40,887 nucleotides of DNA from assembly GCA_016180645.1 (NCBI GenBank), contig JACPAV010000007.1:1-40887 (forward strand), read 5' to 3'. Numbering within the stretch: the first letter of the stretch is position 1; the number at the start of each line of letters is the position of its first letter. Position numbers and translations under genes: made by a program. Of this stretch, positions 166-30,210 are shown in pieces. Under the pieces are notes generated by a model. It did not search any database, had not been told where the DNA came from, and worked only from the letters and a program-made list of their open reading frames with translations. Source of the stretch: Nitrospirota bacterium. Lineage in GTDB: Bacteria > JACPQY01.

Positions 166-822
166 CTACTTGGTGGAGGTCGAGGGAGAGGGTTTGCTGA
201 GGACGCGGACGAGGACGTCTTTGAAGAAATTCTTCCAAGCTTCCCATGATGCCTCCGCAGGCACCTCCTCAAGCAGGAGCCCAAGCAGCGGCTTGGCGCC
301 GAAGAAAATGACCATGAGACCGAGAGCGGAGGCGATCACTTTCTCCGGATCGGTTTTCTGAAGCATCTCGGCCTTCATCGCGCCGCGGAGGAGCTCGATG
401 GTGCGTCGAACTTGGAAGGTGAAAATCTCCGGATGGCGTCGTTTGATCTCCTCGAAATACTCGCCGCCGTTGGCCGACTCGCGGAGGATGATGCGCATCA
501 CCTTTTCGCTCGACTTGTAGAGCTCGAAATTCCGATCGAAAATTTCGAGGGCGAGCGTCATCGGTTCGGTGATATTTGAAAGGGCCTTTTCCGTTTCGGA
601 GGCAATCCGCAGGATGAGTGACTCCAGCACGGCGATGTAGAGTCCTTCCTTGCTGCCGAAATGATAATAGATCATCGCCTTGTTCACGTCGGCGTTCCTG
701 GCGATGACGTCGATTCGAGAACCTTCGAGACCGACTTCCGAGAACACATCGGCCGCCGCGCTGAGAATGCGTTCCCGCGTGCCGACCGGCTCGGCGGGGT
801 GTGGGGCGGGGGAGATCGTCAC
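166..822 (-). CDS. TetR/AcrR-family transcriptional regulator
   Basis: A 218-residue one-domain repressor. The N-terminal helix-turn-helix is typical of TetR: it starts at about residue 15 with GTRERILSAA, continues through FSEVGLEGSRIDVIARNADV and ends with the recognition-helix pattern KAMIYYHFGSKEGLY near residues 48-62. The C-terminal two thirds are helical and variable, as expected for a ligand-binding and dimer domain. The start is a GTG without a clear Shine-Dalgarno; it sits 18 bases after the Rieske stop, so the gene is probably co-transcribed with the ferredoxin and peroxiredoxin. The ligand is unknown. Control of its own operon is a reasonable inference. Confidence 0.9.
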   Translation of the reverse strand: MTISPAPHPAEPVGTRERILSAAADVFSEVGLEGSRIDVIARNADVNKAMIYYHFGSKEGLYIAVLESLILRIASETEKALSNITEPMTLALEIFDRNFELYKSSEKVMRIILRESANGGEYFEEIKRRHPEIFTFQVRRTIELLRGAMKAEMLQKTDPEKVIASALGLMVIFFGAKPLLGLLLEEVPAEASWEAWKNFFKDVLVRVLSKPSPSTSTK

Positions 823-840: not shown

Positions 841-1149
841 TCAAATCTCGATGAGAACGGCATCCCCTTCCTGCTTCACGGGGTACATTTTCGCCTCGAT
901 TATCTCGTTCATCGTGCACTTCCCGGCATCGGCCAGATCGAACTCCCATCCATGCCAGGGACAGGTGACGACCGAGCCCTGGATTTCGCCCTCACCGAGG
1001 GGACCGCCCTTGTGCGGGCAGATGTTCCGAAGGGCGTAGATGCACGCCCCCACTTTGTAGAGGGCCACTTCGGTGCCGTTCACGCTGACCAGCTTTCCCT
1101 GGTTTTCTTGGATCTCAGCCAGAATTGCCACTTTGACGAAATCTGCCAT
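841..1149 (-). CDS. Rieske [2Fe-2S] ferredoxin, small soluble type
   Basis: A 102-residue soluble electron carrier of the dioxygenase-ferredoxin / NirD-like Rieske family. Both cluster-binding boxes are intact: CPHKGG (Cys44, His46) and CPWHGWEFD (Cys63, His66). The start is the ATG at 1149, preceded by a good GGGAGG; a longer reading from 1176 has no such site. No oxygenase is nearby. It follows the predicted selenoprotein peroxiredoxin and precedes TetR on the same strand, so a role in redox or oxidative-stress electron transfer is plausible but unproven. The 165-base gap to the peroxiredoxin contains REP-like element copy 1. Confidence 0.9.
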   Translation of the reverse strand: MADFVKVAILAEIQENQGKLVSVNGTEVALYKVGACIYALRNICPHKGGPLGEGEIQGSVVTCPWHGWEFDLADAGKCTMNEIIEAKMYPVKQEGDAVLIEI

Positions 1150-1314: not shown

Positions 1315-1893
1315 TTACGCCTGCTTCTCGAAAAATTCCATCGGCTTTTTCGTGTCGATCGCCTTCGCGCCCTTGTGCCAATTGGCCGGGCAGACCTCGC
1401 CGTGCTCCTTGTTGTATTGGAGAGCATCCAGCACGCGCAGAACCTCGGAGGGGTTCCGCCCGATGGCCAACTGCTGGACCACCTGGTACTGGAGCACGCC
1501 GTCCGGATCGATGAGGAAGAGGCCTCGGAAAGCCGCCCCCAGATCTTCCTTCAGGACGCCGAAGGCCCGGCTCACCTCTTTGGTGAAATCGGCGAGGATC
1601 GGGATCTCCACGCCTTTGATGCCGCCCTTTTTCGTGTCCACTTCCATCCAAGCCTTGTGGCTGAACTTGCTGTCTGTGGAGCAGGCCACGACTTCACAAT
1701 TCCGCTTCTTGAACTCCGCGCTCTCGCCCGAGAACGCCAATAGTTCCGTAGGTCACACGAAGGTGAAATCGAGCGGATAGAACCAAAGGCAAAGCCACTT
1801 GCCCTTGAAATCGCTCGATGAATAGCTCTTGAACTCGCCCTTCACGACTCCATCGAGCTTGAAGTCCGGGGCTTTCTGTCCCACTTGAATCAT
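1315..1893 (-). CDS. Selenocysteine-containing typical 2-Cys peroxiredoxin (AhpC/Prx1 class)
   Basis: The frame runs from the ATG at 1893 (AAGGAGG eight bases upstream) to a TAA at 1317-1315, giving 192 residues if the single in-frame TGA at 1755-1753 is read through. Codon 47 is that TGA, inside PLDFTFV-U-PTELLAFSGES. In this family the residue there is the peroxidatic Cys of the VCPTE motif. Everything else is family-like: the N-terminal IQVGQKAPDFKLDGV, the length, and a C-terminal resolving Cys168 in EVCPANW. A SECIS-like hairpin begins 15 bases after the TGA. Peroxiredoxins reduce H2O2, organic peroxides or peroxynitrite; selenium at this position is known from rare bacterial members. 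A conventional gene caller would report only the 141-codon 3' piece (from 1740) or a pseudogene. A TGC-to-TGA sequencing error is the main alternative. Confidence 0.88.
1718..1755 (-). promoter_or_regulatory. UGA (Sec) codon with bacterial SECIS-like hairpin
   Basis: The UGA occupies 1755-1753. After 15 bases the transcript can form a perfect 8-bp stem, GCGUUCUC / GAGAGCGC (one G-U pair), closed by the 4-base loop GGGC (1729-1726). The loop starts 23 bases after the UGA and its first two bases are G. That fits the usual description of bacterial SECIS elements: a stem-loop just downstream of the UGA with a G among the first two loop bases. A G-G mismatch followed by two more possible pairs extends the stem below. 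SelB would bind here. Confidence 0.8.
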
Positions 1894-1956
1894 GAACGTA
1901 ACCTCCTTAACGATGGACCAACGCGTATTTTTTCAGGATGCTTGATCCCTGCCAAC

Positions 1957-11462: not shown

Positions 11463-11741
11463 ATGGCCCTGAAAGTCCATCCCAATATCGACAAACCCAT
11501 CACGGTGCTGGGTTTGGAGCCTGAAGAATGGGCGGTGCTGCCCGCCACCATGGGGCTGGTGAACCTGCTGACCGGGTCCGCCGTGCTGGCCATCGTCTTG
11601 AGCCTGGCCTCGGTGGTGGCCATCAAGAGAATCAAAAAGGGAAAACCGCCCGGCTACCTGGTCCACTTTCTTTATCGCCTCGGCCTGCCGGTGAAGGGTT
11701 GGCCCCGCGCCCGGCGCGGTGATTGGAGATACAACTCATGA
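11463..11741 (+). CDS. traL: TraL-like type IV secretion protein
   Basis: A 92-residue inner-membrane protein matching the TraL family in length and layout: a short N-terminal segment with a DKP motif (NIDKPITVLGLEPEEW), one long hydrophobic region at about residues 27-54, then a basic turn and the C-terminal pattern KKGKPPGYLVHFLYRLGLP. TraL is a small VirB3-like subunit of F-type conjugation machines. Its TGA stop overlaps the traE ATG (ATGA), so translation is coupled. The start codon lacks a clear ribosome site and follows a 7-bp repeat island. Confidence 0.75.
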   Translation: MALKVHPNIDKPITVLGLEPEEWAVLPATMGLVNLLTGSAVLAIVLSLASVVAIKRIKKGKPPGYLVHFLYRLGLPVKGWPRARRGDWRYNS

Positions 11742-12370
11742 CGCAACCGCGGTTGCCGAAGTTTTGGGAGGTGTGGGGGGAGGCGGAGGCGAGATACAAC
11801 GTGGTGCGGCTGTATGCGGCGTCCGTCACCGTGCTGGCCGCCTTGCTGGTGGGGGTCGTCGCCTACATGGCGGGGAAGCCGACGCCCGTTCTGATCGTAC
11901 CGGGTGCGGAAGAGGCGTCCATTCTCAAACCGGGCCGGATGACGGAGACCTACGTCGAGGATACGGCCAAGTCGTTTGTTCTTTCGTTCGCGAATTGGAA
12001 CTACTCCACGGTGGACCAGTCCTTCCAGTCGGTCCGGGCAATGATGGATCGCGCGATTTTGGCTGAGTTCGATCTCCGCGCCGCGGATCGCATCGAGGAG
12101 ATCCGCCGGAACCAGATCTCCGAGTCGTTCCACCCGTCGGCTGTCAAGCTCTCCTCCCAAGAAGGAGATCGCTATGTTGTACATCTTGAGGGCATCAAGG
12201 AAACCTACGTGGGGACGAAGCCGGTTTGGTCGGGCGGGTACTACTACGACCTGGTGATGAAGAAGAAGGCGCCCACTCTATCCGATCCGCGTGCCCTCGC
12301 CGTGGTGAAGTTGAGCCAGGGGGAAATGAAGCCGATGGCTCAGGCGGGAACCGGGTCTTCCACTCCGTAA
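11738..12370 (+). CDS. traE: TraE-like (VirB8-fold) type IV secretion protein
   Basis: A 210-residue protein with one N-terminal membrane helix (about residues 26-45) and a periplasmic domain, as in TraE, the F-type counterpart of VirB8. The N-terminal stretch PKFWEVWGEAEARYNVVRLY, then the helix and a GKPTPVLIVPG exit, follow the family pattern; so does the later LSFANWNYSTVDQSFQSVR segment. The start is the ATG at 11738 with GGAG upstream; it overlaps the traL stop by four bases. TraK, TraB and the ATPase TraC, which normally follow, are absent here; the next gene is unrelated in appearance. Confidence 0.8.
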   Translation: MTQPRLPKFWEVWGEAEARYNVVRLYAASVTVLAALLVGVVAYMAGKPTPVLIVPGAEEASILKPGRMTETYVEDTAKSFVLSFANWNYSTVDQSFQSVRAMMDRAILAEFDLRAADRIEEIRRNQISESFHPSAVKLSSQEGDRYVVHLEGIKETYVGTKPVWSGGYYYDLVMKKKAPTLSDPRALAVVKLSQGEMKPMAQAGTGSSTP

Positions 12371-12981: not shown

Positions 12982-13038
12982 GTAGGGGAGCATCTTCAGA
13001 TGCTCCCGGTTTGGGAGGGTCTAAAGACCCTCCCCTAC
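12982..13038. repeat. REP/BIME-like double palindrome, copy 2
   Basis: A 57-bp element: GTAG foot, hairpin GGGAGCATCT-TC-AGATGCTCCC, a short linker, hairpin GGGAGGGTCT-AA-AGACCCTCCC, CTAC foot. It lies between convergent genes (12427-12972 plus, 13068-13868 minus) and could terminate or stabilise both transcripts. Confidence 0.9.
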
Positions 13039-14014: not shown

Positions 14015-14085
14015 GTAGGGGAGCATCTTCAGATGCTCCCTCTTGTCGGGAGGGTCTGAAGACCCTCCCCTACGCATTCTGTTAG
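13997..14085. repeat. REP/BIME-like double palindrome, copy 3, with a 12-bp outer inverted repeat
   Basis: The core 14015-14073 is a 59-bp element: GTAG foot, GGGAGCATCT-TC-AGATGCTCCC, linker TCTTGTC, GGGAGGGTCT-GA-AGACCCTCCC, CTAC foot. It is flanked by CTAACAGAATGC (13997-14008) and GCATTCTGTTAG (14074-14085), a perfect 12-bp outer inverted repeat. The right arm overlaps the stop codon of the OmpA-like gene, so the element forms the 3' end of the long minus-strand operon. Confidence 0.9.
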
Positions 14086-16110: not shown

Positions 16111-19100
16111 TCAGTTCCCGGTGCGGGCGGCGTTCTTTTGGAAGGTGGGCCAGGAATGGGAAGCGGTGCCGCTGCCGGCCACGGTGATTTCGAAGACGTA
16201 GATCTTGTCGTCCGCGGAACCGACCACGAGCTCGAGGTTGGAATCCGCGTCCAGGTTGGCCAGCGTCGGTGAGGAAAGGGCCGCTGTTCCCGCGACGATC
16301 GGCCAGCCGTCCGCTTCGGTATTACCATTGGCGACTTCCCTCGCCGTGATCTGTCCGTTCGGCCGGGCGATGACGACTTCCTGAGTTCCGTCGTTGTCGA
16401 CATCGGCGAGCATGGGTGAGGCGGTCAAGACCCCGAGACCGGTGACGGGCCAGTTCGAGGCGCCTGAGGCGTTGGAGCCGGTGGAGCCGTCTAGAATATA
16501 GACCTCGCCCGCCTGTGTGGCCACGATGATTTCCAGCGGAGGGGAGGCGCCGAGGACGTTGGCTACGGCGACGGAAGCCGTAATGGACGGCGCGCCCGCT
16601 ATCGTGCGGGTTGTGACCGCGCAGGAGGCGGTATCCAAGATATGAATCTTGCCGTCATTCGAGGCCACGATGATCTCCAGCGCGCCGTCGGCATCCACGT
16701 TGGCCACGACCGGTGAATTATTGAGGGCGGCGGACGAGCCGCCGTCCACATCCGCATTGCCTCCACAGACGGACGAATCCAGGCCCGTCGCTCCGGTCAG
16801 AATGCGGATTTGGCCGTTGCCCGTTCCCACGATCACTTCGTTTCCGGCCGAACCGCCGACATCCGCGATGGCCGGCGCCGCATTGGTTCCGGAAATTCCC
16901 GCAAAGGTCCTGGACCACTGCGTCGCGCCCGTCCCGAATTCCACCGCATAGACGACCATGTCTCCGGCGCTGGTGCCGTGGACGACGACTTCGACGGCGC
17001 CGTCGCCGTCGATATTGCCCACCGCGGGAGTGGAGTTCGCTCCCACGCCCGCGAGTGCGATGGTCGGCGTGGCCGACGCGGTGTTGTGCTCGAAGAAGTG
17101 GAGGTTTCCGTCGGACGCGGCGATGGCGAACTCTCCCTGAGCGTCGCCGGTGGCCAGATTCCCTCCGGCGGCGGATCCGGCCGTTACGCTGCCGCCGAGC
17201 GCGGTGGGCCCGAACACGTCGGTATCCGTATTCGTGAGTGTGTAGAGATTTGTGCCGGCCCCTTCGGCGGAGGCAGCGATGATTTCGCAGATGACGCTCG
17301 TGCTGTTGCAGGAATCGGCGCCGGTGTCCAGATTCATGACGAGCGGCGCGTTGGATACGTCCGCCGCCGGAGCGGTCGATCTCGGCCACTGGTTGCCCCC
17401 GGGGCACGGGCCCTCCCGGCCGAAGACGATCTCCACGGAAGGCGGGGAGGAGTAGGATGCGCTGTTGCCGGCGGGGTCGCTGGCGGTGATGACGATGGGA
17501 CGGTTCGGCTGAGTCGTTTCGGTTCCCGCTATGGTGTAGGAGTAGGAAAGATCCATTTCGTTGTTGCCGGCGTCGTCCGAGCAGGCGGCGAGGCAGGAGG
17601 CGGCATTTCCGTCCACCGTCACGGACGGACTGGGCGCCCCGCAGGCAAAGGCCGTCTGGGCGCACCGGATCCCTTCGCCTTGGATGGTGAAATCGATCTG
17701 GATCACGTCGCACTTGGCGAGGGGGGTCGCGGCAACGGGCGTGTAGACGAGGTTGGCGAAGACGGGCGCCGTCGTATCCACCCGCATGGTGTTGCCCGAG
17801 GAGTAGGTGACTTCGTTGTAGACGACATCGCGCACGATGATCTTGTATTGATAGCAACTCCCTCCGGCCACCGCATCCACGAAGGAGCTGCCGCACGTTC
17901 CCTGCGTGGAGAGGGGATTGAACGCCCCGGGGGCCGCGCATGTACCGTCCGCCTGGATGGCGGCCACGCTGCGCTGAAGTTCGCAGCTTCCGATCCCGGA
18001 GACCGGGGGACCGCCGGCGTCGACTCCGGTGCCCCAGGTGATGGTCGGTCCGGTGGAGCTTGAGTCTCCGTTGGTGTAGCTGATCGATCCGCCGGCGGGT
18101 GCCGCGAGGTCCCGAATGACGCTGAAGCTGTTGGTCGACGAGTTTCCGGCTTTGTCATTGCAGGTGACTGTGGAGGCGGCGCTGAACGTGCTGGCCGGGC
18201 CGAGTACCGCATCTTCCCAATTGTAGGTTTGCTGGTAGGGCGTGGCTGAATCTACGGCGCCCGCTGAAACCGTGGCCAGAAAGGTTACATTGTCCATTCC
18301 GCCCGAATCCGTTGCGCCGACGGTGACGATGAAGCTTCCATCCGTCGAGTTGTTGTTGTACCAGACCGTCGTGGTGGAGACGGCCTGTTGGTTGATATCC
18401 GGATTCTCGGCGATGGTGGGTGCCGGGCAGGTGGGGTTGGTGGTGTCGATGACGAGATCGGGCGCCATGGCGGCGGAGTCGGCCGATTCGTTTCCGGCTG
18501 TGTCGGCTGAGCGGGCGACGACATTGGCGTAGGACGCCGGGCCGAGGGCCGAGCTGGTGCAGGACCACGCGCCACCTCCGCCGGAGGTGACGGAACAACG
18601 CTGAGTTCCGCCGATGTAGAGGCGAATGGTGGTCGTGGCCGGCCCGGTCCCGTTGAAGAGGGGGGTTGTGGCGTTGGTGATATTGTCCGTTGTGGAGGAA
18701 CCGGAATCGCTTCCGGGGTCCAGGTCCGGTGCGGCGGGAGCGACCGGCGCGGTGGTGTCGATAGTGACGTTTAAGGACGGCGAGTCCGGCCCTTCGTTTC
18801 CGGCTGCATCCACGGAGCGGGCGATCACCGTGTGGGTGGCCTCACCGAGGGCGGTGCTCGTGCAATTGGTGTAGTCGCCCAGCCCGGTTGTGTCCACGGT
18901 GCAACGGAGGGTATCGGGGCCGGTGGTATAGATTCTGACCTGCCCCGGGGGGGGGGCAGCGCTGGCCGTCAGGTTCTCGAAGGACGGCGTCGTGTCATTT
19001 GTGATGTTGTCCGTGGAGGAGCTGCCAGAATCGCTGGCGGCCATGAGGTCCGGCGCCGAAGCCGGGGCGGCCGGCGCCGTGGTGTCGATCACCAGATCGG

Positions 19101-22100
19101 GCGACAGGGCGGCCGAGGCTGCCGATTCGTTTCCGGCGGCATCCCTGGTGCGGGCGACGACGTCGTTGTACGTGGCCTCGGCAATGGCGACTCCCGGCGT
19201 ACAGGCCGAATAGGCGCCGAAGCCGTCCGTCGTGTCCGTGCAGCGAACGGATCCGCCGACGTAGACCCGGACGATTGTGTTGATCGGCCCGGTGCCGCCG
19301 AAAGTGGGTGTGGTATCCGTGGTGATGTTGTCCGCGCTCGATTTTCCGGAGTCGCTTGCGGCTTGGAGGTCGGGCGTGCCCGGCGCAGCCGGGCCGGTGG
19401 TATCGATTTGGATCGGATTGAGGGTGGGCGAATCCGCCGATTCGTTTCCGGCGAGATCGACGGAGCGAGCGGCGGCCGAGTAGCTGTTTTCGGTGAGGGC
19501 GCTGCTGGTGCAGGACCAAGCGCCAGCGCCGCCGGCGGTGGTTTCGCACACCTGGGCCGCATTGAGGTAGAGGCGGACTTTCTCGTTAAAGGGGGCGCCC
19601 GTGCCGGAGAAACCCGGGGTCGTGATGTTGGTGATGTTGTCTATGCTGGACGTGCCGCTATCGCTTGCCGCGTCGAGATCGGGGGCTCCCGTGGGGACGG
19701 CCAGCGCCGTCGTGTCGATCGTCACGCTGAGGGTGGCGGAGTCGGTGCCTTCGTTCCCGGCGAGATCGACCGAGCGTGCCGTGAAGCTATAGGTCGCTTC
19801 GCCCAGAACGGAGCTGGTGCATGCGCTGTAGTCTCCGGCGCCGTTCGTATCGACGGTGCAGCGGAGCGTGAGCGGTCCCGCTGTGTAGAGTCGCACCTGT
19901 CCGTTCGGCACCGCGCTGCCGGTGAGGTTTTGGAACGTGGGTGTGGTCAAATTGGTGTAGTCGTCCGACGAGGAGGTACCGGAATCGCTTGCCGCGGTCA
20001 TGTCCGGCGCGGACGCCGGAGCCGCCGGCGCCAAAGTGTCGATCGTAAGGCTCAGACTAAGAACGGAATCCGGAGAGATGTTGCCGGCGAGATCCACGTT
20101 GCGCGCGGTGACCGTGTACGCTGCGTCTCCCAGCGCGGGCGCGGCCGTGCATGCCGAGTACAAACCGGTGCCGTCCGTCGTCACGGTGCAGATCGGGCTG
20201 CCGGTGGCGTACAGGGTGACGTAGGCGTTGGTGTCCGCCCCGGAGCCCGAGAGTGTGGGCGTGTTGTCGCTGGTGGTGTTATCCGTGGCGGATTTCCCGC
20301 TGTCGCTGGCGGCGTCGAGGTCCGGAGCGGCGGTGGGACCGGCGGCGGGCGCGGTGGTATCGATCACGAGATTCGGCGACATGGCGGGCGAGTCGGTCGA
20401 GGAGTTTCCCGCGAGGTCGACTGATCGCGCCGTGATGGTATAGGTGCCGTCGGCGAGCGCGGGGGCGAGTGCGCATCCGGAGTAAGTTCCCCCTCCGAGG
20501 GCGGTCACGCTGCATTTCTTGACGCCATCGACGAAGACTCCCACGACTTCCAAGGGGGGCGCGCCGGAACCGGAGAACGTGGGCGTGGTGGTCTTGGTTA
20601 TGTTGTCCGTGCTGGAAGCGCCGGTATCACTGGCGGCGTCGAGGTCCGGCGCGGCGGTGGGGGCCGGCGCGGGGGCGACCGTGTCCAGTGTGATGCTGAG
20701 TGCCGGGGAATCGGGAGATTCGTTTCCGGCGGTGTCCACGGAACGGGCGGTGATGGTGTACACCACGGCGGCTCCGCCGGCGAGGGCCGGGCTGATCGTG
20801 CAACCGGAGTAGTTTCCGCCTATGTCCGACGTGACTGCACAGTTTCCGTAGGTACCGTTCCAATAGATTCGTACGCTCGTATTGGCGGGGGCTCCGCTTC
20901 CGAGGAACGTGGGGGTTGTGATGTTGGTGATATCGTCCGTGTTGAAGGTGCCCGAGTCGCTGGCGGGATCGAGGTCTGGGGCGGAAATGGGCGTTCCCGG
21001 CGGAGAGGTATCGTAGACCCAGAGGGTATTGTCGAGGAGGCCGGCGTTTCCGGCGAGATCGGTCATGGCGAGCCGCACGGTGTAGGTTGTTCCGTCGATC
21101 AGCGTATCGTTGGGATCGGACGAGACGCCGGTGACGCCGCAAGCAGAGGAGCTGAGGTCCCCGCCGACGAGGTTCGGCGCGCACGATTTGGCGCCCGCGC
21201 TTTCGAAGGTTGCGTTGAACGTGATGATGTGAGGGCTGAATATGTCCGCCGGTCCCGCCGTGCGCGTGAAAGTAATTTTGACCGTGCCCGAGATCGCGTT
21301 TTCGGGAATGTTGAATGCCGTGGTAATCGTCGCGTTATCCGCTCCGCTCGCGGCCGGCGCGGTGAGAGAGGGGGCGGGAACTTCTGTGTCGAACGTAATT
21401 GCGCCGGCGGTTACGGCGGAGGCGTTGACATTACCTGCGCCGTCGCGGGTCCAGACGTACATGGTTACGGAAGCGGGTGGACTCCCCGTTCCGCTCATCG
21501 AGACGCTGGTGGGTTCCGGAGTGGTCCATGTGGTGCCGCCGGTGCAGGAGGATGAGGTCGGCTGGGTCGTTTGGGTATCGCTCAGGCACCAACCCGAAAT
21601 GCCGCTGGTCGCGTCCGACTCTCCGGCGATCGTGGCGTTGATCGGATTGCTGTTGGAATACGTGGCTGCGTTCTGCCCGGCGGCGGGAGAGGGATCGGCG
21701 ACCGTCAGGGTCATGCCGCTCGTGGGCGCCGTGAGATCCAGCGTGATCGCGTCGGATACTGTTCCCACGTTGACATTCCCCGCGCCGTCGCGAACCCAGA
21801 CGTAGATCGTCTTGGCGGCGTCGCCACCGCTCAGCGTGAACGTGGTGGGTTCGATGCCGACGAAGCAGGCGTTGGTGGCGGCGGGTTGGGTGGACTGGGT
21901 TTCGCTGAGGCACCAGCCGGAGATTCCCGATTCGGCGTCGGTATCTCCCGTGACGGAGGCGGTGACGGGATTCGTGTTGGTGTAGGTATCGACTTGGGCT
22001 GCGAATTTGGAGGGGTCGGACGCGTCGAGCGCTGGATTGCCGGGCACCGCTTGATCCAGAGTGATGGCAAAGGACACCGCGGGGAGGGCGTTCACGTTCC

Positions 22101-25100
22101 CGGCCGCATCTCTCACCCAGAGATAGACCGTCTTGAGGCCGTTGCCCGCGGTGAGGGAGAACGTGGCGGGGGCGGGGGTGGTCCACCCTGTGCCGCCGTT
22201 GCAGGTGGCGGCCGTGGGCTGGGCGGCTTGAGTTTCGCTCACGCACCAGCGGTCGACTGCGAGATTGTCCGTTGCCGTAATCGACGTGTTCACAGGGTTT
22301 GCGTTTGTGGTTGCACCTTGTCCAGTGAAAGTGGTCGGGTCCGCCAGGCTCAGGATGGGAGTTCCGGGTGCCGTGGCGTCGAGGGTGATCGAAGCGCTTC
22401 CGGCGGCGGCGCTGACGTTGCCGGCGGAGTCTTTGAACCAGGCGTAGACCGTCTTGCAGTTTGGTACGGCGCAGTCACCGACCGAGAGCGAGAAGGTCGT
22501 CGGTTCCGGAGTCGCCCACGTGCCGCTCGGGCAGGTCGTCTCCGACGCGGCCGCCGCATTTTCCGTCAGGCACCATCGAACGACATCTCCGCTCTCGCCC
22601 GTGATCGTGGCGGACACAGGATTGTCGTTGGTGTAGGTGGCGGTGGTGGGAGTCGGATCGGCGAGGGCGAGCGAAGCATTGGGGGGGGCCGTCCGATCGA
22701 GCGTGATGGATCCCGAGCTTTGAGTGGTGTTGATTTGGCCGGCGGCATCCTGCACCCAGACGTAGACGGTTCGGGCGCCTTCGGTGCTCGTGGGCAGTGT
22801 GTATGTGGTGGGTTTCAGGGCGACCCACGCGCCGGACGGGCAGGTGGCGGCTGTTGCAATCGCAGGATCATCCGTGACGCACCATTTGACGACGTCGGGT
22901 GTATCGGTGAATGCCAGGGTGAGCGAAGTGTTGGGGCAGGGGCCCACGGCGCAATTGTTGGTGACGGTGGTGCTGCCACTTTCCGGATCGGTGAAGGTGA
23001 TGGCAATGGGGTCGTTCGGCGGGCCGGTGTCGAGTGTTATCGTGTCCGTGGCGGCGGCCGTGCTGACGTTTCCCGCGCCGTCGCGCAGCCAGAGGCGGGC
23101 CGTCTTGAGGACGTCGCCCGCGGTGAGGACGTTGACCCCGTCGGACTGGGGCGTCGGGGCCGCGAGATTCCAGCCGGTGCCGTCGACCGGGCCGCTGGCG
23201 GCGAGACAGGAACCGGCTGTGGGTATTCCGGCATTCTCGGTAAGGCAATAGCCTGAGACTCCACTGGCGGCATCTGCCGCGCCTGCGATGCTGACCGAGA
23301 CGGACCGTTCGTCACTGAGCACTTGGCTGGACGTTGTCCGATCGGTGATATCCACCGTCAGGCCCGTCCCCCCCCCCGCTGGAGCGGTGGAGTCGAGGGT
23401 GATTTGCGCGCAGGTGGCGCCCGGGCAGGCCGTACCCGCGCTGACGTTTCCGGCATTGTCCTTGAGCCAGACGTAAACGGACTTGAGGCCGTCCGCGCCG
23501 GTGAGGGTGCAGCCGGAGGCGCCCGGCGGCAGTGCGGAGGTCGTCCAGTTTGAAAACGTCGGGATGCATTGACCCGTGCAGGTTGATTCGGGGGGCGCTC
23601 CCGCGGTTTCTCTCAAGCACCATCCTGCGATGCCATTCGCGTCGCTGCCGCCGGTGATGGAGACGTCCACGGTGGCGGTATTCGTGTAGGTGGTGGTGAC
23701 CTGGCCGGTGAAAGAGGACGCCGGCGGATCGGCCAGGGAAGCGGCGGTGGGATCGGCCGGCGGCGTGTTGTCGATACGGATGCGCTCCGGATCCGTGTCC
23801 GCCATCGTGGCGGTGTTTGAGTTTCCTTTGACGCCGGCCTGATTGGTGCAGTCGTTAGCCGCGGCGCCCCGGCCGACGGCGGGGGTGGCTTGGTCGCAGG
23901 CGGTGACGGTGAGGAGCTTGTTGCCGTCCGCCGTCATGGCGCCCGCAGCGGGCAGGGTGGTCGAACCTTCGTAGATTGCGGTGTCCAGATCCACGTAGCA
24001 GACCCGGTTGAGGACCACGGTGCCGCCGGCGGTGACGATCGGGGAGAGATCGACCGTCACGTAGCCGTCCACCCCCAGCAGCGTCATGTCGTCGGTCACC
24101 ATCACGGTCAGGGTAAGTTGGTCGCCTGCCTTGTAGTAAAGGCTGGTCTGCGGGAGAACGAGTGCACAGGGAGTCGAAGTGAAGTTGTCGTTGCTCTTGG
24201 AATGGACGATGCCGGGCGGTTCGATGACCGGTTTTTTTCCGTCGAAGAAGTATCCCGGCGGAGCGGTGGGCGGTCCACCGCTCGATGGGGGGTAGTATTT
24301 GGAGCTGGGACCCGTGGCTCCGACTGATCGCATCGCGACGTAGTAGAGGGAATTGGGGGGCAGAATGGGGGGACCGTCTACGACGGCGCTGATCGCGGTT
24401 CCTGAGATTCCGGTCTTCGGACTGGGCGCGACGTTGTAGGGGGGTTCGCCGCCGACAAAGGCCGTCGGCTTGTAGTGGATTTCGTATGTGGCGGGGTTGG
24501 TTGCTGTGCCGCCGACGTCCGGGGGAGACCACCGGACGACGATCTGGGTTTCCGTTCCGCCGTTGGCATTGCCGAGGATGGTGGACGTATTCAACACGGT
24601 CGGGGCGGGGAAGGGGGTGGTGGCGGATGTGATTACGCTGTAGTCGCCTACGTTGCCGGCGACTCCCGATTGAACGGCTTGGACGGCGAAATAGAACACC
24701 TTGTCGATATTCACGCCGCGGATGATGATCGGGAGAGCGCTGGACGGAACGTTCTGGATGGGGGCGTCGCATGTTCCGCTCAGGGCGTCGCAGCCGTCGC
24801 CCGTGATGCCGCCGACGGAGTTGGGCGGGACATCCGTGCCATCCATGGGCACCGAGCCGTCGAAGTCATAGTAGAGGGTGTACTGACTTGCGCCGGTCAC
24901 GGTGCTCCAGTTGACCAGGAAGCAGGCGATGCGTTGCGGAGCGTTGGTGGGGTTGGAGCAGGTTTTTCCGCTCACGACGTCGCCCACCAGCATCGGAGTG
25001 ATGGTGAGCGTCGGCCGGGCCAGCGGGATGAGGCTTTGGTTGGAGGCGTAGGGGCTCTCGGTGCTTGTGGCGAACGCTTTGACGGAGAAGTGGTACTGCA

Positions 25101-28100
25101 CGCCGGATGTGAGGCCGGTCAGCGTGAGGTCGGTCTTGGTGGACGGGATCGGTCCGAGGCCGCCGGCCGTGCTCGCGCCGGCTGCGCAAGGGTCACCTGC
25201 CGCCGCGGCGAGGCTCTCGCAGGTGGCGGAAACAGCTTCGCAGGTGGCGGCCACGCCGCCTTCTCCGGTCGTTTGAACGTACGGTGCGCCGGCGGTGTCC
25301 GTGTCATAGAAGACTCTGTAGCAGGTTGCTCCGGTGACTGCATTCCAGTCCACCTTGGTATTCACGACGCCGTCGATGACGCTGGCTCCCGTTTCGCCGG
25401 TTACAGCGAAACCGGTTGGCGTATCGAGGCCGGAGGTGGTGGTCTTCTCGGGTGAGAGGGCGCTCTCCCCCTCGCCATTCTCAAGCGCGCAGCCTGAGCC
25501 GCCCGTCAAGCAATCGCCGTCGTCCTTCATTGCCGAAATGGCGAGGTAGAACGTGGTCGGGGTGGAGCCGCTGGGGAGGTTGAACGTTTGAGTGGTGGTG
25601 GAGCCGGAGGTGATTACGTGGGGCGAGGCGCCTTCCTGGAACTGCGTGCCGGTGTACGGGGTGCCGGAGTTGGTGTCGTAGTAGATGCGGTAGCCCGTGG
25701 CGTCTTTGACGCTGCACCATGTCAATTGGACTTGAGTTCCGTTGGCTGTGGCCGAGAAACAGAGGGGGGTGGAAAGGGGGATAGCGTTTACGGTGGGCGG
25801 GCTGGAGCCATTGAGGTCGGCAAAATCGCTATGGTTGCCGCCCGCCTCGGCCACCGCGCTGAAGCAGTAGCTTTCACCGACCGCCAATTGATCGCCGTTC
25901 TTGAGACAGGTCAGGGTGATGTTGGACGACGCGGTAGTGACGCCGCCGGAGATGCCGTTGCAGGCATCGGCATCCGCATTGTAGTTCGTGGTCCAGGCGC
26001 CGGCATTGTCTCGGGTGACGGCGGTACACGCGGCGGCTGTCTCGCGGCGGTAGTAGACGCGGTAGCTCAGCCCTGACAGACCCGTCAGGGCGTTCCACGT
26101 GAGGGTGGCCTGGCTGGTGGCGGTGGTGACCTTGAGGTTCGTGGGCGTGGCAATCAGCGTTCGGGCGGAGCCGGAGTTGGTGGCCAGGTCGCTTTCCCCG
26201 CTTTCGGCGTCATCGCTCCCGGGCGGTCCTGGAACGATCGCGTAGGAGTCATTGATCGTGTTGGCCGCGGACACGGCATAGTAGTAGGTCTTGTCGGCTT
26301 GGAGACCGGAAAGTGTGAACGTGCAAAGCGTGGGTGCGCCGGAGACGCAGCCGGCCGCCACGGGTTCGCGCACAATCGGGGAGGTTCCTTCGGCGGCCCC
26401 GATGCCGGTGTAGGGCGCTCCCGCGGAATCCGTATCGTAGTAGATCTTGATTTTGTCGACGCCATTGGAATTCGTGGTGGTCCAGTCCGTGTTGAATTGG
26501 AAGGTGAGAGTAGAGGCGGTCAGCTTGGCCGTGCTGCCCGCGCCTGCGCCCACGAAGGTCGGATCGACGACCCCTGTCGGCACGGCGATCGGGATGCCTT
26601 CCCGATTGGGAAGAAAGGGGTCGCCGCAGTTGTTGACGGTGGAGTTGGCGCCGGGGTCGGGGGTCAGTTCGCAGGGGTCGTCGGCCCCTGCCGGCGCGGG
26701 AGGGGAGGCCGGCAGCGGGGGGGCGCCCTTTACCGCTACGATGCCGAAACAGTATCGAGTGCCGTTCACCAGGTCGATTCCACTGCCATCCTTGGTGGCG
26801 GTGTAGGACGTGGAGGTCGAGGTGATCACCTTTTTCGGAACGTCGGGTGGGCAACCGTCTGCATCCTCGGCATCGACAAAAACCTGGTAGCTGTCCGCCC
26901 CGGTCACGGGGTCCCACGTCATGACGGCCTTTCCCGTTCCCAGGGTTACGGCGAAGTTGGCGACCCTCGGGAGGAGCGTGGTGAGTCCGATTTCATCCAT
27001 CGGATCGCTTTCGTCGCCCGCGGTGGTGACCGCAGCGGCGGCCAGATAGTAGGAACTGTTCGAGGGGAGGCCGCTCAGGGCGCATCGCTCGTTGATGCCG
27101 TTGTTGATGCAGGACGTGTTGACGAGTGTCGACGCTCCTTCGGTGGCGCCGGTCCCTTTGTAGTCGGAAATCTTGAGCGTTCCGGCGCGAGAGGCGGTGT
27201 CGTAACCCACTTTGTACGTGGGACAGGCTTCACCCGACGCACACGATCCGTAGGATGGGCAGATGGCCAGCGGGCACACCCCGCGCTGCCACTCGAAGAC
27301 GAGCCGGGCGGCCTCGATGTCCTTTTCATGTTTGTCGACATAGGAGGCCATCACCGGTTTGGCCAGCGGCGTGGCGGCATCGTTTGTTTGATTGCTTCTT
27401 CCGCTGCCGTTCACGGCGACGGTCGAGAAGTAGGCGGTTTGACCGTTTGAGGGGAACGACGCTCCCACGGGGATGGCCCGCGTTTCGGGACAGACGCCGG
27501 CAGCCGTGGTGCCGCAACCTGGGGTGCCTGCGACAGCGCAGAGCGTCATGGAGGCGCAGGAGGTGGTGACGACGTTGGAGACCGGTTTCGCGAGGTGGTC
27601 TTCGGCGAGGGACACATTGTTCCAACGGATTTCATAACCGCCGGTGGCGCCCGTGACGGCGTTCCAACTCAACTCGACTCGACCGGTTCGGCCTTTCGCG
27701 ATGAAATTGGCCGGCTTGTCGATGGGCAGCACGGTGATCTGTGAAGAGAGGCTGCTGTCGGTCCGCGCGTCCGTTCCGCTCCGGAGAGCGGAGACAACCG
27801 CATAGTAAGCCGAACTGTTGGCGAGGCTGGGGAGCGTGGCGCATCGGGAGGTTCCCGCAATGGCTGCCGGACAAGTGGCGGTGACCGGTGTGCCACACCC
27901 TGCATCGGCCGGGCAGCTTGACGTGGAAGTTTCCATGGCCAGCAGACACGAAGTGTAGACACCGCTCGACGTGCCGTACTGAATCTTGTAGCAATCCGCC
28001 TTGTCCACCGCGTCCCACTTCACCGGGCCTTGGCCGGTCAGGTGAGCGGGGCCGAGCGCGTTTGAGAGGGAGAGGAGTCCGAAGCCCGTGGGCGCGGCCA

Positions 28101-30210
28101 GCGGGGTCACGATAACCTGATCGCTCAGCCGTCCTTCCGTTCCGTCGGAATTCGAAGCGGAAACCCTCAAGTAGTAGGTGGTCGCATTGATCAGTTTCGT
28201 GAGTGTGGCCGAGGTGGACGCCGCCGCGATGGGGGACGGGCCTTCACCGGCGCCCGTGCCGGCATATTTGGCCGGATCATTCGTGCCACTGGCCGTGCTG
28301 TAGTACACCTTGTACTGGACCGCTCCCGGGATGCTGAGCCATTTGAGGGAGGCTGCGGCCGTGGAGCCGGCGACGGTGAGCGCGGGGCGATCGGGCGGGG
28401 AGAGCCGGGTTTTCACCGAGGTGAGATCGCTCTCCGAGCCGGTGTCGATCACGGCTGTCATGGCGATCTTGAGGGTAACGTTGGGTGCGAGCCCGGTGAC
28501 CGTGACTTTGCACGGCGTGGTCGCGCAGGCGGCGGCGTTGTTTTCGGTTTTCAGCGGAATTCCGAGGACGGACTCCGCCGCGGTTGGGAACGCCGCGAGA
28601 GGACCGGTCGGCCCCACGCCCGCGGGAGGCGTTGAAGTCGCAAAGAAACGATAGCCGGTCGCCTTGTCCACTTTATCGAACGTAAAGGTGACGGCGAGGG
28701 AATCGCTGGGCAGGTCTACGCCCAGGGTGTCCACGACGTTCGGCGGCACGGCGAGCGGCGTGGAGGAGACTTCCTTGGAATAGGCGCTCTGAGCGAGATT
28801 GTTCTGCGCGCGGACACTGAAGAAATATTCTTTGCCGTTGTCGAGTCCCGTCACCACCGCCGTGGTGTCCTTCGTGATGAGCGGACCGGGATCGTCCTTT
28901 TCTCCGCAGGAGAGATCGTAGCAACTGTCGTCGGTCTTTCGCGCGGCCGTTCCGTAGAAAACGGCATAGCGAGTTTCATAGGCGGCGGCGAGCGCGCTGC
29001 CCGGCTCGACGCCTTCCGGCAGTTCCGGCGTGATCAGCACGGGGTCCCAACTGATTTCGACGCGCCCGGTGCGGCCTTTGGCCTTCACATTTTGGGGGGT
29101 GGGATAGGGCACAGCCACCGGCCGTTCATCGCCGTAGTTGCTTTCCGAGTTGGTCGATCGGTTGGACGCTCGAACGGTGACGTAGTATTTCGTGCCCTTC
29201 CGAACACCGGCCAGCCGGAGTTCGATTTTGCCCCCGACCGTGGCGGTTGAGGGCGTGAGAGGGGAAATTTTGTCTCCGATCCGTCCGTTGTAAGGCGGTC
29301 CCGGCCCGTCCACGTCGAAGTACACTTTGTAATCCGTAGCCCGCTCGACGGGATCGAACGTGAGGATCATGGTGGCGTCTTCGATCTTGGCCTCAGGAAG
29401 GGTGGGTTGCCGGATCGTCGTGGCCGAAGAAACATCCGAGTACAGGCTCGCTTCGTTGTCGCTCAGCGCGATGAATTTGAACTGGTACTCGGTGTCGTCC
29501 GTCCATTCGAAAGTCGTCGTTCCGGCTTCGCAGTCGTCCCCCCCGGGCGGCAGGGAAACGGCGGTCTTGCGTGTCAAGCAGACGGCCTCAAACGACTCGG
29601 AGGACGATTCCTTGGCGCAGACCCAATAACGAGCGGCGGTGGGGATGGTATTCCAGGCCAGCTCCGCGGATTTCGTGCGGCCGGTGACGCAGGCCTTGCT
29701 GTCATTTTGTTCGCAGCGGGACCACGTGGGTGTGACGCCCGTCATCGTGGGTTGGAGCTGGACCACGCCGACGTCCGTCACGCCGCCGGCGTTGATGGTG
29801 GTTCGTTTTCCTCCAAGGTAGAGGGGCTCATTTCCCGCTCGCGCTCGGATCACGACATCCACTTCGCCGCCCGGCGCCGTGATGACGGCCGAGGCCTTGC
29901 GGTCGTCGAAGCGGAACGATTGGCGGAAGATGGCTTTGGCAGCCAGCGGATCATCGGGGGGGGCGTTGCAGTCCACCTTCTGATTTTCCGGTGCTCGCTG
30001 CGGACTCGGTTCGAAGATCAGGACATCGAGCGTGTCCGGCTTGGCGGCGGCGGCCTGTTCGCGAATCTCGATCCGGAAGGACAGCTCGGTGTTGCCCCCG
30101 TCGGACTTCCCGCCGAAGCAGCTCGCAAACGTGATGAGTGAGGAGTGAAGAGTGATGAGAAGGAGGCGGCGAAGAGGTTCGGCGATCGGCCCTTCTTTCA
30201 CTTCACTCAT
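16111..30210 (-). CDS. Giant (4699-residue) modular lipoprotein: FnIII, Ig-like and FG-GAP domains
   Basis: A single uninterrupted 14.1-kb gene. The signal peptide ends LITFASCFGG (lipidation candidate Cys31; Phe at -3 is unusual). From about residue 150 to 1975 there are some 15 FnIII-like domains, with recurring YYDT..G..YTGTGxxEGxSP loops. About 2150-2940 hold seven Cys-containing Ig-like modules with the cue WCLTEN/WCLSETQ...W...DxAGNV...ITLD. About 3060-3930 hold eight Ig-like modules beginning APDLDAASDSGxSxxDNITN. About 4270-4699 form an FG-GAP propeller ending HSWPTFQKNAARTGN. Surface adhesin or matrix roles are typical for such proteins. It starts 23 bases after the FecR gene, so the two are probably co-expressed. 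Two 10-base and two 8-base G/C runs lie inside. The start lies in a 7-bp repeat island and lacks a clear ribosome site. Confidence 0.9.
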   Translation of the reverse strand: MSEVKEGPIAEPLRRLLLITLHSSLITFASCFGGKSDGGNTELSFRIEIREQAAAAKPDTLDVLIFEPSPQRAPENQKVDCNAPPDDPLAAKAIFRQSFRFDDRKASAVITAPGGEVDVVIRARAGNEPLYLGGKRTTINAGGVTDVGVVQLQPTMTGVTPTWSRCEQNDSKACVTGRTKSAELAWNTIPTAARYWVCAKESSSESFEAVCLTRKTAVSLPPGGDDCEAGTTTFEWTDDTEYQFKFIALSDNEASLYSDVSSATTIRQPTLPEAKIEDATMILTFDPVERATDYKVYFDVDGPGPPYNGRIGDKISPLTPSTATVGGKIELRLAGVRKGTKYYVTVRASNRSTNSESNYGDERPVAVPYPTPQNVKAKGRTGRVEISWDPVLITPELPEGVEPGSALAAAYETRYAVFYGTAARKTDDSCYDLSCGEKDDPGPLITKDTTAVVTGLDNGKEYFFSVRAQNNLAQSAYSKEVSSTPLAVPPNVVDTLGVDLPSDSLAVTFTFDKVDKATGYRFFATSTPPAGVGPTGPLAAFPTAAESVLGIPLKTENNAAACATTPCKVTVTGLAPNVTLKIAMTAVIDTGSESDLTSVKTRLSPPDRPALTVAGSTAAASLKWLSIPGAVQYKVYYSTASGTNDPAKYAGTGAGEGPSPIAAASTSATLTKLINATTYYLRVSASNSDGTEGRLSDQVIVTPLAAPTGFGLLSLSNALGPAHLTGQGPVKWDAVDKADCYKIQYGTSSGVYTSCLLAMETSTSSCPADAGCGTPVTATCPAAIAGTSRCATLPSLANSSAYYAVVSALRSGTDARTDSSLSSQITVLPIDKPANFIAKGRTGRVELSWNAVTGATGGYEIRWNNVSLAEDHLAKPVSNVVTTSCASMTLCAVAGTPGCGTTAAGVCPETRAIPVGASFPSNGQTAYFSTVAVNGSGRSNQTNDAATPLAKPVMASYVDKHEKDIEAARLVFEWQRGVCPLAICPSYGSCASGEACPTYKVGYDTASRAGTLKISDYKGTGATEGASTLVNTSCINNGINERCALSGLPSNSSYYLAAAAVTTAGDESDPMDEIGLTTLLPRVANFAVTLGTGKAVMTWDPVTGADSYQVFVDAEDADGCPPDVPKKVITSTSTSYTATKDGSGIDLVNGTRYCFGIVAVKGAPPLPASPPAPAGADDPCELTPDPGANSTVNNCGDPFLPNREGIPIAVPTGVVDPTFVGAGAGSTAKLTASTLTFQFNTDWTTTNSNGVDKIKIYYDTDSAGAPYTGIGAAEGTSPIVREPVAAGCVSGAPTLCTFTLSGLQADKTYYYAVSAANTINDSYAIVPGPPGSDDAESGESDLATNSGSARTLIATPTNLKVTTATSQATLTWNALTGLSGLSYRVYYRRETAAACTAVTRDNAGAWTTNYNADADACNGISGGVTTASSNITLTCLKNGDQLAVGESYCFSAVAEAGGNHSDFADLNGSSPPTVNAIPLSTPLCFSATANGTQVQLTWCSVKDATGYRIYYDTNSGTPYTGTQFQEGASPHVITSGSTTTQTFNLPSGSTPTTFYLAISAMKDDGDCLTGGSGCALENGEGESALSPEKTTTSGLDTPTGFAVTGETGASVIDGVVNTKVDWNAVTGATCYRVFYDTDTAGAPYVQTTGEGGVAATCEAVSATCESLAAAAGDPCAAGASTAGGLGPIPSTKTDLTLTGLTSGVQYHFSVKAFATSTESPYASNQSLIPLARPTLTITPMLVGDVVSGKTCSNPTNAPQRIACFLVNWSTVTGASQYTLYYDFDGSVPMDGTDVPPNSVGGITGDGCDALSGTCDAPIQNVPSSALPIIIRGVNIDKVFYFAVQAVQSGVAGNVGDYSVITSATTPFPAPTVLNTSTILGNANGGTETQIVVRWSPPDVGGTATNPATYEIHYKPTAFVGGEPPYNVAPSPKTGISGTAISAVVDGPPILPPNSLYYVAMRSVGATGPSSKYYPPSSGGPPTAPPGYFFDGKKPVIEPPGIVHSKSNDNFTSTPCALVLPQTSLYYKAGDQLTLTVMVTDDMTLLGVDGYVTVDLSPIVTAGGTVVLNRVCYVDLDTAIYEGSTTLPAAGAMTADGNKLLTVTACDQATPAVGRGAAANDCTNQAGVKGNSNTATMADTDPERIRIDNTPPADPTAASLADPPASSFTGQVTTTYTNTATVDVSITGGSDANGIAGWCLRETAGAPPESTCTGQCIPTFSNWTTSALPPGASGCTLTGADGLKSVYVWLKDNAGNVSAGTACPGATCAQITLDSTAPAGGGTGLTVDITDRTTSSQVLSDERSVSVSIAGAADAASGVSGYCLTENAGIPTAGSCLAASGPVDGTGWNLAAPTPQSDGVNVLTAGDVLKTARLWLRDGAGNVSTAAATDTITLDTGPPNDPIAITFTDPESGSTTVTNNCAVGPCPNTSLTLAFTDTPDVVKWCVTDDPAIATAATCPSGAWVALKPTTYTLPTSTEGARTVYVWVQDAAGQINTTQSSGSITLDRTAPPNASLALADPTPTTATYTNDNPVSATITGESGDVVRWCLTENAAAASETTCPSGTWATPEPTTFSLSVGDCAVPNCKTVYAWFKDSAGNVSAAAGSASITLDATAPGTPILSLADPTTFTGQGATTNANPVNTSITATDNLAVDRWCVSETQAAQPTAATCNGGTGWTTPAPATFSLTAGNGLKTVYLWVRDAAGNVNALPAVSFAITLDQAVPGNPALDASDPSKFAAQVDTYTNTNPVTASVTGDTDAESGISGWCLSETQSTQPAATNACFVGIEPTTFTLSGGDAAKTIYVWVRDGAGNVNVGTVSDAITLDLTAPTSGMTLTVADPSPAAGQNAATYSNSNPINATIAGESDATSGISGWCLSDTQTTQPTSSSCTGGTTWTTPEPTSVSMSGTGSPPASVTMYVWTRDGAGNVNASAVTAGAITFDTEVPAPSLTAPAASGADNATITTAFNIPENAISGTVKITFTRTAGPADIFSPHIITFNATFESAGAKSCAPNLVGGDLSSSACGVTGVSSDPNDTLIDGTTYTVRLAMTDLAGNAGLLDNTLWVYDTSPPGTPISAPDLDPASDSGTFNTDDITNITTPTFLGSGAPANTSVRIYWNGTYGNCAVTSDIGGNYSGCTISPALAGGAAVVYTITARSVDTAGNESPDSPALSITLDTVAPAPAPTAAPDLDAASDTGASSTDNITKTTTPTFSGSGAPPLEVVGVFVDGVKKCSVTALGGGTYSGCALAPALADGTYTITARSVDLAGNSSTDSPAMSPNLVIDTTAPAAGPTAAPDLDAASDSGKSATDNTTSDNTPTLSGSGADTNAYVTLYATGSPICTVTTDGTGLYSACTAAPALGDAAYTVTARNVDLAGNISPDSVLSLSLTIDTLAPAAPASAPDMTAASDSGTSSSDDYTNLTTPTFQNLTGSAVPNGQVRLYTAGPLTLRCTVDTNGAGDYSACTSSVLGEATYSFTARSVDLAGNEGTDSATLSVTIDTTALAVPTGAPDLDAASDSGTSSIDNITNITTPGFSGTGAPFNEKVRLYLNAAQVCETTAGGAGAWSCTSSALTENSYSAAARSVDLAGNESADSPTLNPIQIDTTGPAAPGTPDLQAASDSGKSSADNITTDTTPTFGGTGPINTIVRVYVGGSVRCTDTTDGFGAYSACTPGVAIAEATYNDVVARTRDAAGNESAASAALSPDLVIDTTAPAAPASAPDLMAASDSGSSSTDNITNDTTPSFENLTASAAPPPGQVRIYTTGPDTLRCTVDTTGLGDYTNCTSTALGEATHTVIARSVDAAGNEGPDSPSLNVTIDTTAPVAPAAPDLDPGSDSGSSTTDNITNATTPLFNGTGPATTTIRLYIGGTQRCSVTSGGGGAWSCTSSALGPASYANVVARSADTAGNESADSAAMAPDLVIDTTNPTCPAPTIAENPDINQQAVSTTTVWYNNNSTDGSFIVTVGATDSGGMDNVTFLATVSAGAVDSATPYQQTYNWEDAVLGPASTFSAASTVTCNDKAGNSSTNSFSVIRDLAAPAGGSISYTNGDSSSTGPTITWGTGVDAGGPPVSGIGSCELQRSVAAIQADGTCAAPGAFNPLSTQGTCGSSFVDAVAGGSCYQYKIIVRDVVYNEVTYSSGNTMRVDTTAPVFANLVYTPVAATPLAKCDVIQIDFTIQGEGIRCAQTAFACGAPSPSVTVDGNAASCLAACSDDAGNNEMDLSYSYTIAGTETTQPNRPIVITASDPAGNSASYSSPPSVEIVFGREGPCPGGNQWPRSTAPAADVSNAPLVMNLDTGADSCNSTSVICEIIAASAEGAGTNLYTLTNTDTDVFGPTALGGSVTAGSAAGGNLATGDAQGEFAIAASDGNLHFFEHNTASATPTIALAGVGANSTPAVGNIDGDGAVEVVVHGTSAGDMVVYAVEFGTGATQWSRTFAGISGTNAAPAIADVGGSAGNEVIVGTGNGQIRILTGATGLDSSVCGGNADVDGGSSAALNNSPVVANVDADGALEIIVASNDGKIHILDTASCAVTTRTIAGAPSITASVAVANVLGASPPLEIIVATQAGEVYILDGSTGSNASGASNWPVTGLGVLTASPMLADVDNDGTQEVVIARPNGQITAREVANGNTEADGWPIVAGTAALSSPTLANLDADSNLELVVGSADDKIYVFEITVAGSGTASHSWPTFQKNAARTGN
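18947..18956. repeat. Homopolymer tract G10 (C10 in the coding strand of the giant gene)
   Basis: Encodes Ala-Pro-Pro-Pro in frame, followed on the coding strand by GGGG. A one-base change would truncate the protein within an Ig-like module at about residue 3755, losing the FG-GAP end. Confidence 0.9.
23368..23377. repeat. Homopolymer tract C10 (G10 in the coding strand of the giant gene)
   Basis: Encodes Ala-Gly-Gly-Gly in frame at about residue 2280, between two Cys-containing Ig-like modules. Confidence 0.9.
30131..30158. repeat. Degenerate heptanucleotide tandem repeat in the giant gene's signal peptide
   Basis: Plus-strand units GTGATGA, GTGAGGA, GTGAAGA, GTGATGA. On the coding strand they give LITLHSSLIT. 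They form an imperfect inverted pair with the island at 30201-30228. Confidence 0.85.

Follow-up and report, generated by a model that had tools for sequence, protein, structure and literature searches.

Can a peroxiredoxin gene with a TGA at its catalytic codon be read through as a selenoprotein gene, and, if so, where does its product belong among the peroxiredoxins? This question is raised by a gene in the window, i.e., the whole stretch of 40,887 nucleotides analysed here, from the draft genome of a Nitrospirota bacterium (4.7 Mb, 65 contigs, 97% complete). The window begins at base 1 of contig C7, and the gene lies close to this contig end. The best overall explanation, to which we give a probability of about 95% on the grounds of sequence comparison, is that the gene encodes a typical 2-Cys peroxiredoxin in which SelB would insert selenocysteine (Sec) at position 47, with resolution by Cys168 and recycling by thioredoxin and thioredoxin reductase.

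The peroxiredoxin gene and its neighbours

The features of the locus discussed in the following are:

1315 to 1893, minus strand: gene for a predicted Sec-containing typical 2-Cys peroxiredoxin, 192 residues plus TAA (AhpC-TSA 1.3e-37, 1-cysPrx_C, full-length match to solved thioredoxin peroxidases)
1753 to 1755, minus strand: in-frame TGA (codon 47) in place of the peroxidatic Cys in the PxxxTxxU motif; the same codon is TGA in at least 120 homologues
1390 to 1392, minus strand: codon for Cys168, the resolving Cys of GEVCPANW (position calculated from 1893)
1894 to 1908, minus strand: ribosome-binding site AAGGAGGT, upstream of the peroxiredoxin ATG
1711 to 1746, minus strand: bSECIS-type hairpin with upper stem 1737-1730/1725-1718, loop GGGC 1729-1726 and outer arm 1746-1742/1715-1711
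1189 to 1293, no strand: intergenic palindromes between the peroxiredoxin and Rieske genes
841 to 1149, minus strand: Rieske [2Fe-2S] ferredoxin or NirD-like gene, next downstream of the peroxiredoxin; the ORF is open from 1176, and a better ribosome site precedes its ATG at 1149; association with the peroxiredoxin not established
166 to 822, minus strand: gene for a TetR-family regulator, downstream of the Rieske gene at a distance of 18 bp

The peroxiredoxin frame, from 1893 to 1315 on the minus strand, is 193 codons long with its TAA stop and encodes 192 residues, and codon 47 (1755-1753) is its sole in-frame TGA. Its 5' end reads AAGGAGGT-TACGTTC-ATG, with a strong ribosome site seven bases ahead of the ATG, and its cysteines are at positions 35, 66, 71 and 168, the last within GEVCPANW. 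Frame, TGA at the catalytic Cys, ribosome site and resolving Cys168 had all been named in a preliminary description of this DNA, and each was reproduced. By standard stop-codon rules, the gene would be cut at residue 46.

The protein matches both solved thioredoxin peroxidases and human PRDX2 from end to end (phmmer 3e-63, 7e-62). The motif of typical 2-Cys enzymes, PxxxT(S)xxC plus an Arg, is present with Sec in place of C, as P40-L-D-F-T44-F-V-U47 and R123, in the context ...YPLDFTFV-U-PTEL (or DFTFV-U-PTELLAFSGESAEFK), and the C-terminal resolving Cys that characterizes the class, Cys168, is aligned in all Sec members of the protein's clade (see below). With human PRDX2 and the schistosome thioredoxin peroxidase the protein shares the full-length sequence (phmmer 3e-63), the peroxidatic loop, Arg123, the resolving Cys in GEVCPANW and the C-terminal arm, whereas the peroxidatic residue is Cys in those enzymes and would be Sec here. 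The C-terminus is FF in the window protein, and YF, as is usual, in the eukaryotic typical 2-Cys peroxiredoxins. These traits assign the protein to the typical 2-Cys (Prx1/AhpC) class, for which peroxidase activity and an obligate homodimer or decamer are predicted.

The preliminary description also placed the gene in an operon with the Rieske ferredoxin and the TetR regulator. A single regulated operon of this kind, in which the Rieske protein would supply electrons to the selenoenzyme, appears improbable. The three genes do share strand and order, but the gap of 138 bp between the peroxiredoxin stop and the Rieske gene (165 bp if the latter starts at the ATG at 1149) is taken up by strong palindromes together with a dispersed repeat, and a standard thioredoxin reductase gene is present in the genome (trxB, 403 bits). 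Neither Rieske nor TetR relatives were found near other Sec homologues, many of these loci being represented with only 1.5 kb of flank; the pairing is hardly conserved. One weak case of co-occurrence came to light: at locus L171 (G092, Planctomycetota sample), a Cys-type peroxiredoxin homologue is preceded, at about 0.2 kb, by a Rieske relative (36% identical), an arrangement that may hint at an occasional association of the two genes. A functional link between peroxiredoxin and Rieske protein is not supported.

The first half of the gap (1177-1247) is one copy of the dispersed repeat, which matches the genome at 44 other places. This repeat is a palindromic, REP/MITE-like intergenic element of about 67 bp (GTAGGGGAGGGTCTTTAGACCCTCC...GGGAGCATCTGAAGATGCTCCCCTAC) with 45 genome matches in all, and its core palindrome recurs twice more in the window, at 12986-13007 and 14019-14040.

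The hairpin and the Sec machinery

Behind the TGA, the 8-bp stem with a GGGC loop noticed earlier was found as described, at 1737-1718: this upper stem begins 15 nt after the UGA, the loop lies 23 nt after it, and an outer 5-bp arm lengthens the hairpin, for an MFE of -18.6 kcal/mol. The published rules for bSECIS elements are a loop of 3-9 nt, a stem of 4-16 bp, a G in the first two loop positions and a spacing of 16-37 nt, at an MFE of -7.5 or lower (PMC13188914, Fig. 2), and the window hairpin, with its GGGC loop, 8 bp and spacing of 23, agrees with all four published rules (PMC13188914). Taken alone, the hairpin is only moderately significant, because 11 out of 500 synonymous-codon shuffles of the same peptide contain a hairpin that obeys the bSECIS rules and folds as low (the window being better than 489; z -2.3). 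Nine Sec relatives have shuffle z values below zero throughout (-0.6 to -2.7), and those of 25 Cys homologues are around zero (-1.35 to +1.16). The register of the hairpin is not conserved even in the closest relatives among the matches listed; alternative hairpins, read by eye, are UCCGAC-AGUCU-GUCGGA in L064 and CUCCGAC-AGGUU-GCCGGAG in L161 and L053. As the hairpins stand in different registers, covariation across relatives was set aside as evidence. A scan of the window against Rfam gave no match at gathering score.

The preliminary description inferred that the organism decodes Sec and proposed a search for selA, selB, selC and selD. The full set is present in the same genome: selA (556 bits), selB (369.8 bits, above its cut-off), selD (356.9 bits, itself carrying a TGA) and tRNA-Sec (73.3 bits, above the Rfam threshold, and also called by ARAGORN, with a TCA anticodon). 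Together with the homologous TGA in at least 120 peroxiredoxins, including those of the nearest relatives, this machinery backs the inference. A true selB also occurs in each of the five further genomes that carry the nearest Sec homologues among the matches listed. The sister genome G001 (same family, 84% complete), which is the only other genome of the phylum in the set searched (two phylum species in total), has no selB above the cut-off and no close peroxiredoxin homologue, and for this reason the Sec trait may be patchy within the phylum.

Two other TGA-containing genes were seen in the source genome. In selD (L015, G000:C5:71685-72605), the TGA is at L015 1531-1533 within the motif RCAG-U-AGK and is followed by a strong hairpin with a GGA loop at a spacing of 20 nt. 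The second encodes a Bcp/PrxQ-type peroxiredoxin (L021, G000:C15:69332-69709) with the TGA at L021 1630-1632, in the peroxidatic site DTPG-U-TAEG, and a 7-bp hairpin behind it with a GUU loop at a spacing of 17 nt. Both spacings were counted from printed folds, and both loops start with G.

A mechanism can be proposed from these components, with its chemical steps taken over by analogy from the peroxiredoxin family. SelB, loaded with Sec-tRNA(UCA), would recognise the hairpin that closely follows the UGA, and would insert Sec at position 47. The Sec47 selenolate would then attack H2O2 or organic hydroperoxides, and the partner subunit's Cys168 would convert the resulting selenenic acid to a selenenylsulfide, for which thioredoxin and thioredoxin reductase are the presumed reductants.

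Relation to PrxU and to other peroxiredoxins

Sec peroxiredoxins had been called rare in the preliminary description, a claim contradicted by a TGA-specific motif scan, F-(T/S)-F-(V/I/M)-UGA-P-T-E, of about 85,000 genomes, which returned at least 120 stretches. All the matches listed are peroxiredoxin relatives, as judged by a BLAST match to the window protein, and they span Bacillota, Chloroflexota, Myxococcota, Calditrichota, Planctomycetota and others; the homologous codon is TGA in L161 (61%), L053 (57%), L137, L055 and L064, and TGC or TGT in 25 Cys homologues. The viral contigs searched held no peroxiredoxin relative and no match to the TGA motif. In the literature, the original description of the Sec peroxiredoxin PrxU is that from Eubacterium acidaminophilum (Sohling et al. 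2001, as cited in PMC9312934), and Zhang et al. (2006) reported 12 Sec peroxiredoxins and inferred five Cys-to-Sec conversion events (PMC1794560). On account of the motif matches and these two reports, Sec peroxiredoxins are a known, widespread and common kind, of which the window gene is a further one.

It is quite improbable that horizontal transfer brought in the gene, along with its SECIS, as an ordinary PrxU family member. The PrxU-group Sec peroxiredoxins are widespread, the window protein is 37-48% identical to them, and it shares with PrxU (NF040737) the AhpC-TSA fold, the UGA-encoded Sec at the peroxidatic site of PxxxTxxU and the bSECIS hairpin behind the UGA. However, it scores 173.6 bits against the model NF040737, below the curated cut-off of 270, and both the tree and the AU tests place it outside the PrxU-type Sec clade. 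Moreover, it has the resolving Cys, which is missing in 100 of the 113 Sec rows of the other group among the matches listed, and its hairpin is in a different register, with the loop 23 nt past the UGA as opposed to the usual 17.

The maximum-likelihood tree, built from 82 proteins, has two parts. One is a large all-Sec group, whose member L093 reaches 376 bits with the NCBIfam PrxU model; the other is a 33-row clade with support 98/93, made up of 23 Cys and 10 Sec members, in which the window protein stands among Cys enzymes of Planctomycetota, within the typical 2-Cys peroxiredoxins. Sec appears in this clade at separate places, namely the window protein with L064, L161 and L053 (88/83), L137 with L055, L023 with L095, L079, and L046, whose position is unsure because of its long branch. 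Across the whole tree six changes are needed, at least four of them forced by well-supported branches; these counts are rough, since a single phylum sample supplied most of the Cys rows, and the Sec rows are those of the matches listed. A single origin is rejected for all Sec rows (AU p 4e-5) and also for the ten Sec rows of the window's clade (AU p 1e-6), which implies that Cys and Sec have been exchanged repeatedly, with unrelated hairpins. Each of the ten Sec rows in the window's clade retains the resolving Cys, against only 13 of the 113 in the other group among the matches listed.

By parsimony, Cys would be the ancestral state in the window's clade, and its Sec codon was most likely gained inside this clade of Cys-type 2-Cys peroxiredoxins, separately from the PrxU family. 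Going one step further, we consider it probable, with some reserve, that typical 2-Cys peroxiredoxins changed from Cys to Sec independently on at least four to five occasions, in every case with a new SECIS arising from coding sequence and with the resolving Cys retained, giving rise to a Sec/Cys "hybrid" branch outside PrxU that is nameless in current annotation models. The exchange is of the same type, and in the same superfamily, as those of Zhang et al. 2006 (PMC1794560), but it sits in a typical 2-Cys clade of Planctomycetota-like sequences together with a sparsely sampled phylum.

What is modestly new about the window gene is that it falls outside PrxU, in a clade with repeated exchange of Cys and Sec. 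It provides a clean selenoprotein gene from a very sparsely sampled phylum, out of reach of the named PrxU model, and the surrounding clade lends itself to comparisons between otherwise similar enzymes that have either Cys or Sec at one site, and to studies of how a SECIS originates within coding sequence.

Other readings of codon 47 and other genes of the window

Two readings would dispense with Sec altogether. According to the first, the gene is a pseudogene or carries a sequencing error, a Cys codon TGC or TGT having been mutated to, or read as, TGA. A single base separates these codons, and the genome is a draft. Nevertheless, we regard this reading as highly improbable: the TGA falls exactly on the catalytic codon, the remainder of the frame is intact and has a strong ribosome site, the same TGA is found in independent genomes of the nearest relatives and in at least 120 homologues, and the genome has the full Sec machinery. 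The second, a genome-wide reassignment of UGA (e.g., to Trp or Gly), found no supporting point and is practically negligible, because UGA is a normal stop in the window (7 of the 17 clear genes end in TGA), the other 16 clear window genes contain no in-frame TGA in about 10,000 codons, Trp is TGG throughout the window genes, and the residue replaced is the catalytic Cys. In sum, the Sec machinery, the TGA in selD, the second TGA peroxiredoxin and the use of UGA as a normal stop elsewhere make both readings very unlikely, and leave insertion of Sec at codon 47 as the preferred one.

Elsewhere in the window, positions 16111-30210 (minus strand) encode a protein of 4,699 residues, probably a giant surface protein, whose domains include fibronectin III and eight Big_13 Ig-like ones and whose C-terminal part resembles a beta-propeller. 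Positions 11463-12370 (plus strand) hold TraL- and TraE-like genes of an F-type conjugation or type IV secretion apparatus, here in a sparsely sampled phylum.
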